Position numbers and translations under genes: made by a program. 64,000 nucleotides of DNA, from the NCBI RefSeq assembly GCF_900105755.1, contig NZ_FNTQ01000001.1, forward strand, positions 5,270,001 to 5,334,000, given 5' to 3'. Below are positions 22,107 through 39,950 of the stretch, in pieces; position 1 is the stretch's first letter, and every line of letters starts with the position of its first letter. The notes beneath the pieces are model-generated. The model had not been told where the DNA came from. It saw only the letters and a list, made by a program, of their open reading frames with translations, and did not search any database. Source of the DNA: Streptomyces sp. Ag109_O5-10 (lineage in GTDB: Bacteria > Actinomycetota > Actinomycetes > Streptomycetales > Streptomycetaceae).

Positions 22107-22547
22107 ATGAACCAGAAATCCCTCCCGCAAGTCATCGCCCCGACACACCACTTCACGGTTCAGCTGTCCGCCACTCGAAGAGGTGCCCGACTGGCGCGGC
22201 TGCTCACCGAACGCCAACTCGACGACTGGAGGTCACCGTTCGCGGAGGCGGCGACGCAGGTCGTCGCCGAGCTGGCGTCGAACGCGGTGCTGCACGGGCG
22301 TGTGGCGGGGCGGGACTTCCGGCTGGGGCTACGGCTGTACGCCGACCGCACGCTCCGTATCGAGGTGACCGATGCCCGGGGCGACCGCGTCCCGCGCCTC
22401 CACGATCCGGCCGGCGCCGACGGGGAATCGGGGCGAGGCCTGCTGATCGTCGGGGCATATGCCGACCGGTGGGGCGTGGACGAGGCGCAGGCGGGCTGCA
22501 AGACCGTGTGGGCGGAGCTGGGGGCACCGGGTCGCGGGGGCCCGTGA
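22107..22547 (+). CDS. Anti-sigma-factor-like ATP-binding protein (HATPase_c_2)
   Basis: A 146-residue serine kinase-like protein with a GHKL ATPase fold. The N box VVAELASNAVLHG and the G1/G2 boxes RIEVTDARGDRVP and ESGRGLLIVGAYADRWG are clear. Proteins of this type bind ATP and, in the SpoIIAB/RsbW group, phosphorylate anti-sigma antagonists; the many Streptomyces versions next to XRE/DUF397 pairs have unassigned roles. It is divergent from the XRE gene, and the 65-bp space between them must hold both promoters. Confidence 0.9.
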   Translation: MNQKSLPQVIAPTHHFTVQLSATRRGARLARLLTERQLDDWRSPFAEAATQVVAELASNAVLHGRVAGRDFRLGLRLYADRTLRIEVTDARGDRVPRLHDPAGADGESGRGLLIVGAYADRWGVDEAQAGCKTVWAELGAPGRGGP

Positions 22548-22774
22548 CCCGGTCGTTCCCGACGCCAAAGACCAAAGAACCGGGGAAAGAACCCAACCCG
22601 CCCCTACCGTCCCCGGCGATCACCCGCCGGAGTGAATATGCCGAACTCGGCTGGCGTGGAGGGTCAGTTGTACGGCAGCGTCTGCGGCGACAAGTCCAGA
22701 CATACTTCGGCCCTCGCCGGGACTGCCATCCCACTGCGAGGGCCTGATCATCAAGGAAGAGAGAACCTTCCCCC

Positions 22775-39780: not shown

Positions 39781-39786
39781 TATGAT
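39781..39786 (+). promoter_or_regulatory. Candidate -10 element of the tRNA-like gene promoter
   Basis: TATGAT, one base from the TATAAT consensus and notable in this GC-rich context, lies 42 bp before the 5' end of the tRNA-like sequence. No good -35 element is found at the usual spacing. It is the only clear -10 in the 270-bp intergenic space. Confidence 0.5.
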
Positions 39787-39827
39787 CATTCCAGAGCTGG
39801 TCGGCCCGGTGCGGTCCGTCCGGTACT

Positions 39828-39897
39828 GCGTTGGTGGTCCAAGGAAAGACGCCCCGCTTCCTGCGGGGAAATGCAGGTGCAAGGCCTGCCCGGCGCT
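39828..39897 (+). tRNA. Unusual tRNA-Gly(UCC)-like gene, 70 nt
   Basis: The sequence folds into a cloverleaf. Acceptor stem GCGTTGG (39828-39834) pairs with CCGGCGC (39890-39896), with two G-U pairs. The D arm is 39837-39850 and keeps A14, G18, G19 and A21. The anticodon stem CCCCG/CGGGG encloses CTTCCTG with U33 and anticodon UCC at 39859-39861. The T arm is GCAGG/CCTGC, and the discriminator is U as in bacterial tRNA-Gly. Oddities: a T loop TGCAAGG lacking T55, a pyrimidine at position 37, a 4-nt variable loop, and CCG not CCA at the 3' end. It may be a specialised or decayed tRNA. A -10-like TATGAT precedes it and a hairpin terminator follows. Confidence 0.55.
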
Positions 39898-39906
39898 CCG
39901 TCCCCG

Positions 39907-39931
39907 AGGCCCGTCCACACCGGACGGGCCT
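39907..39931 (+). terminator. Hairpin terminator after the tRNA-like gene
   Basis: AGGCCCGTCC (39907-39916) and GGACGGGCCT (39922-39931) form a 10-bp stem around a 5-nt loop, followed by TTGTG. The position ten bases after the tRNA-like 3' end supports an independent small transcript. Confidence 0.8.
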
Positions 39932-39950
39932 TGTGCGTTGCCCGGGACCG

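Follow-up and report, generated by a model that had tools for sequence, protein, structure and literature searches.

A dispersed family of non-canonical tRNA-Gly genes in Streptomyces that may supply glycine outside the ribosome

The window, i.e. the whole stretch of 64,000 nucleotides analysed here, contains a tRNA-like element with a 71-nt core at positions 39828-39898, called type A in the following. ARAGORN predicted a tRNA-Gly(tcc) at 39828-39899 in the window, and the Rfam tRNA model (RF00005) aligned end to end with 39828-39897 at 39.0 bits against a gathering score of 29; this match was obtained only with a short segment, scans of longer stretches giving no match at 39828-39897. Our covariance model R1 scored the core (39828-39898) at 105 bits. 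The features of the element are the following:

39781..39786, + strand: -10 promoter-like box TATGAT, read from the sequence
39796..39824, + strand: predicted 5' leader hairpin of the primary transcript (MFE fold)
39828..39898, + strand: type A non-canonical tRNA-Gly core, G1 to C74, anticodon UCC (ARAGORN, RF00005, R1, conservation edges)
39828..39834, + strand: 5' strand of the acceptor stem, GCGUUGG, pairing with 39890-39896 (sequence and covariation)
39837..39850, + strand: D arm, GUC / loop CAAGGAAA / GAC (pairs intact in 48 of 48 distinct cores)
39852..39868, + strand: anticodon arm, CCCCG / CUUCCUG / CGGGG (its five pairs vary yet remain paired in 48 cores)
39873..39889, + strand: T arm, GCAGG / UGCAAGG / CCUGC (near-invariant in type A)
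39897..39898, + strand: discriminator U73, then C74, no CCA encoded (UC the same throughout types A-D, see below)
39905..39933, + strand: 12-bp terminator-like hairpin (fold)

The core is laid out 5' to 3' as a 7-bp acceptor stem (GCGTTGG/CCGGCGC, including the wobble pairs U4-G69 and U5-G68), a 2-nt link, a 3-bp D arm, a 1-nt link, a 5-bp anticodon arm with a 7-nt loop, a 4-nt variable loop and a 5-bp T arm with a 7-nt loop. The anticodon UCC occupies 39859-39861 and U37 lies at 39862; the T arm contains GUGC in place of GTPsiC as well as C50-G64 and A51-U63. The sequence features that an earlier note on this DNA had listed (UCC, U73, the D-loop A14/G18/G19/A21, U37, the UGCAAGG T loop, two G-U pairs, no CCA, TATGAT) were all present on direct reading, as was the downstream hairpin, which folds into 12 bp instead of the 10 bp noted. 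The known Streptomyces small RNA scr4677 (RF02673) was also found in the window, at 22545-22773 on the + strand (107.8 bits).

Pairing was followed by direct counting in 48 distinct type A cores, in which 99.8% of the paired cells hold standard pairs. The acceptor pairs G1-C72, C2-G71 and G3-C70 are invariant and pairs 4-6 covary: pair 6 is either G-C or C-G, and pairs 4 and 5 vary among U-G, U-A and C-G. In the anticodon stem, pair 5 occurs as G-C, A-U, C-G, U-A or G-U and pair 4 as C-G, A-U or G-C. The stems change on both sides, indicating that the type A cloverleaf is most likely under selection. The earlier note had named missing covariation as an outcome that would overturn its tRNA-Gly assignment; covarying stems were found, and the assignment is borne out further by the ARAGORN call, the RF00005 match and the conserved glycine identity described below.

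Type A is a dispersed RNA gene family, and the window element is one copy of it. With the window segment as BLAST query, 116 of 199 Streptomyces genomes proved to contain related sequence; the core is 92-100% identical in most of these while the flanks diverge, and several copies per genome with differing flanks are frequent. S. clavuligerus ATCC 27064 is one laboratory strain that carries type A. On 70 Streptomycetaceae plasmids (68 Streptomyces and 2 Streptantibioticus records), type A was found at 136 places. In the genome that contains the window (9.46 Mb), type A is present in full at least three times, besides a degraded copy on a plasmid. In this plasmid copy (C2:52542-52622) the promoter, the leader and the D and anticodon halves are intact and the T arm is swapped for other sequence. 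R1 matched 179 of 395 Streptomycetaceae genomes with at least one to six matches each, type B matches (see below) included; copy counts per genome are lower bounds because scoring was limited to 4 or 12 candidates in each. Relatives beyond Streptomycetaceae were rejected, since the matches examined outside this family in a class-wide search were ordinary tRNA genes, nearly all of them tRNA-Arg(TCT). A phage origin was rejected as well: type A had no match in the phage collection, and a 26-nt core pattern had no exact match in IMG/VR. In the plasmid records NZ_CP139045 and NZ_CP109116 one locus-tag number is missing exactly at the type A element, which suggests an RNA gene call by the NCBI pipeline at that place; in three further records the numbering is continuous across the element.

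Alignment of 156 non-redundant copies revealed near-total conservation from G1 to C74 with an abrupt drop on both sides. A TAnnnT box precedes G1 in 152 of the 156 copies, at about -47, and the 3' flank folds strongly (-21 kcal/mol or lower) in all of them; a helix of at least 6 bp begins no more than 12 nt after C74 in 154 copies, the hairpin sequences being unrelated among copies. The leaders vary in sequence and are structured in most copies, with a higher stability than mononucleotide shuffles (mean z -2.07, 156 copies). RNAalifold gave no consensus structure for them because they are not alignable. None of 153 copies lies within a predicted gene, and the copies have no neighbour genes in common beyond syntenic groups such as that at the tsaD operon (12-13 copies). 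Since every copy carries a -10 box and a terminator of its own, lies outside genes and lacks a common neighbour, type A copies are predicted to be free-standing, independently transcribed RNA genes. Cis-regulation was rejected, as the copies have no downstream gene in common, and so was a linked FemX gene, none having been found among the genes examined around the copies.

Bacterial glycine identity resides in G1-C72, C2-G71, C35, C36 and U73, to which the Thermus enzyme adds C50-G64, G10 and U16 (PMC9976931). The window element has all of these nucleotides except U16. No variation was seen in the outer three acceptor pairs or in U73-C74, the more distant types B-D included, and the next base is variable. 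The anticodon loop occurs as CUUCCUG, CUUCCCG, CAACCG, CAGCCG, CAUCCG or CUCCAA; CC is always present, and several of the variants are only 6 nt long, as expected for recognition by GlyRS and not by the ribosome. The marks of protein synthesis are altered: the GTPsiC T loop and purine 37 of canonical translating tRNAs are replaced by GUGC and U37 in the window element, GUGC is invariant across types A-D, and type A has U or C37 in place of A37 and A51-U63 in place of the strong EF-Tu pair G51-C63. A canonical tRNA-Gly(UCC) is also encoded in the genome of the window. It shares with type A the acceptor ends, UCC, U73-C74 and the tRNA fold, but is only 53% identical to the window element, has a 4-bp D stem and contains GTTC, A37, G49-U65 and G51-C63. 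Elsewhere in this genome (C1:1289550-1289704) a tRNA-Ala adjoins a tRNA-Gly(GCC) with an unusual C1-G72 acceptor.

Searches of Streptomycetaceae with R1 and a second model, R2, uncovered further odd tRNA-Gly genes, called types B, C and D. Type B comprises 20 distinct sequences with the T loop UGCRAU and usually adjoins tRNA-Gly(GCC). It was present in 20 of 20 tested Streptomyces genomes that lack type A and in the genome of the window (C1:4884406-4884478, - strand, upstream of tRNA-Gly(GCC)), which makes 21 of 21 Streptomyces genomes checked directly. The R1 search of the window's genome did not detect it. That type A replaces type B in a complementary distribution was rejected, since this genome carries both. 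ARAGORN calls type A an ordinary tRNA and mostly misses type B, including the copy in this genome. With the window element, to which it is 66% identical, type B shares the T-loop motif UGCRA, A51-U63 and the glycine identity; unlike type A, it mostly occurs at one locus, keeps A37 and has a U53/C61 mismatch in the T stem. Type B is described here; as the literature covered was open-access, these odd tRNA-Gly genes, type A included, may have been described earlier. Types C and D occur in other Streptomycetaceae: type C has the loop CUUUCAG, without CC, and tandem copies, and type D has the loop CUUCCGG and an altered D loop. The D-loop GG is absent from types B and D and from one type A variant.

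A close known parallel is found in staphylococci, where non-proteinogenic tRNA-Gly with A49-U65, A51-U63, a pyrimidine at position 37 and loss of G18G19 serves the glycine bridge (PMC4052509, PMC2630981). R2, built solely from Streptomycetaceae sequences (Streptomyces types A, B and D), scored staphylococcal cell-wall tRNA-Gly genes at 64.7-74 bits, the canonical Streptomyces tRNA-Gly(UCC) at 64.3 and other tRNAs in the staphylococcal arrays at no more than 44. These genes were located with one such tRNA sequence as query, which the search confirmed: it matched a Staphylococcus record at 98.7% and tandem copies in two IMG/VR contigs. Like type A, the cell-wall tRNA-Gly of S. aureus and S. epidermidis has UCC, a pyrimidine at 37, A51-U63, U73 and the glycine acceptor pairs, and is present in several copies besides a canonical tRNA-Gly. 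The GUGC of type A recurs in three of the six staphylococcal genes that were read, GUGU taking its place in the others. There are also differences: sequence identity is 58-61%, type A lacks an encoded CCA and consists of dispersed units with their own terminators whereas the staphylococcal genes form a tRNA array, and the anticodon loops of some type A sister copies have 6 nt, unlike staphylococcal tRNA-Gly. The D loop of the window element (CAAGGAAA) retains the GG that S. aureus non-proteinogenic tRNAs have lost, and its pair 49-65 is G-C in place of A-U, A51-U63 being common to both. Because neither G18G19 loss nor A49-U65 is found, we liken type A to the staphylococcal group and do not file it within that group.

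As the marks of glycine are kept and those of protein synthesis are lost, type A may supply glycine outside the ribosome. With moderate confidence we favour a tRNA that is charged with glycine, bypasses the ribosome and acts as donor for FemX-like transferases, its charging, its escape from EF-Tu and its acceptor pathway being inferred. The transcript would be matured by RNase P, 3' processing and CCA addition and charged with glycine by GlyRS; the charged tRNA would bind EF-Tu poorly and not decode, and a FemABX-type transferase that uses aminoacyl-tRNA would pass its glycine on to peptidoglycan or to a related product made without the ribosome. The canonical tRNA-Gly(UCC) would separately serve translation. 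Two FemAB-type transferases (PF02388) are encoded in the genome of the window, at C1:5180777 and C1:4727322. Streptomyces is also known to have FemX and VanK, along with antibiotic enzymes that depend on Gly-tRNA, among them Orf11 and DhpK (PMC4052509, PMC12945691). Points against this reading are the D-loop GG and the G49-C65 pair of the window element, the absence of type A from many Streptomyces, the lack of a FemX-like gene near the copies examined and the loop of type C, which has no CC.

The earlier note had proposed a dedicated non-ribosomal tRNA-Gly or another tRNA-derived small RNA and had pointed to peptidoglycan bridge synthesis. Its non-ribosomal part gains support from the GUGC/Y37/A51-U63 signature, which type A has in common with the staphylococcal cell-wall tRNA-Gly, and from the canonical tRNA-Gly(UCC) elsewhere in the same genome. 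The link to peptidoglycan has to be qualified: a glycine bridge is expected in every Streptomyces strain, while type A is accessory, multi-copy and plasmid-borne, and none of the copies examined has a FemX gene nearby. Many Streptomyces lack type A, so the genus-wide bridge does not depend on it; type B is the better candidate here. Type A would then be an accessory, gene-dosage form beside the single-locus type B; from this accessory distribution one may speculate that the constitutive glycine bridge relies on type B and that type A meets an additional demand. More tentatively, and as a possibility we would not yet rely on, types A-D could form a hidden Streptomycetaceae superfamily of glycine-charged tRNAs withdrawn from translation, in which type A is a spreading accessory, plasmid-borne and multi-copy 'glycine donor' and the anticodon loop of some lineages is down to the CC needed by GlyRS. 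Outside staphylococci, little is settled on how cells divert aminoacyl-tRNA away from ribosomes and towards enzymes of the cell wall and of natural products; a dedicated Streptomyces tRNA-Gly, if true, would make the question directly testable in a genus with FemX, VanK and several antibiotic enzymes that depend on Gly-tRNA.

Other explanations were weighed against this glycine-donor reading. An uncharged tRNA-derived regulator or decoy, acting as the full transcript of leader, core and terminator (e.g. as a sponge that titrates a protein binding tRNA, a toxin cleaving it or a regulator sensing it), would suit a multi-copy, plasmid-borne element without a linked enzyme, with a structured leader in most copies and with some anticodon loops cut to 6 nt. 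We nevertheless consider it unlikely: it leaves unexplained why other positions drift but the GlyRS identity, U73-C74 and the loop CC stay, and the core edges coincide exactly with mature tRNA ends. Pyrimidine 37, the GUGC T loop, the 6-nt loops in sister copies and the canonical UCC tRNA in the same genome render it very improbable that type A is a minor tRNA-Gly isoacceptor that still translates, perhaps under particular conditions, even though the window copy presents UCC in a 7-nt loop with U33. Non-functional tRNA pseudogenes or a short repeat spread by recombination would account for many dispersed copies, some of them degraded such as that on the plasmid at C2:52542, but not for compensatory changes, sharp functional edges and a promoter and terminator kept at independent loci; covariation largely refutes the pseudogene reading, to which we give hardly any credence.

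Another candidate is kinship with the phage-associated skipping-rope RNA (RF02924), the element being an actinobacterial relative with a secondary likeness to tRNA. Both have a branched layout with two short conserved islands, GGUC..GACGC and GAGAUGCAGG..CCUGCC, and the same promoter/terminator layout; RF02924 aligns with type A over the full length (17.3-18.5 bits), its top match in the 9.4-Mb genome is a type A copy, and it matches neither canonical tRNAs nor type B. However, the 17.3 bits of the window element are far under the gathering score of 36.7, R1 fails to find true skipping-rope RNAs, the tRNA model gives 39 bits and the glycine acceptor identity is foreign to skipping-rope RNA, which makes such a kinship quite improbable. 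Skipping-rope RNAs in two viral contigs (L260:6929-7007 and L283:6519-6597) have a TATAAT promoter, a terminator and the GAGAUGCAGG..CCUGCC found in type A. YrlA Y RNA (RF02553) mimics tRNA as type A does, but differs in sequence and in the order of the arms. Its model did not match the window element, which lies 1.88 Mb from the TROVE gene, and YrlA/Y RNA was rejected because the family match in this genome, at C1:7189619 beside the TROVE gene, is another RNA. This YrlA-like permuted tRNA-like RNA scores below the Rfam threshold and occupies C1:7189581-7189860, beside the Ro60-type TROVE gene at C1:7190805; possibly two such RNAs are encoded there.
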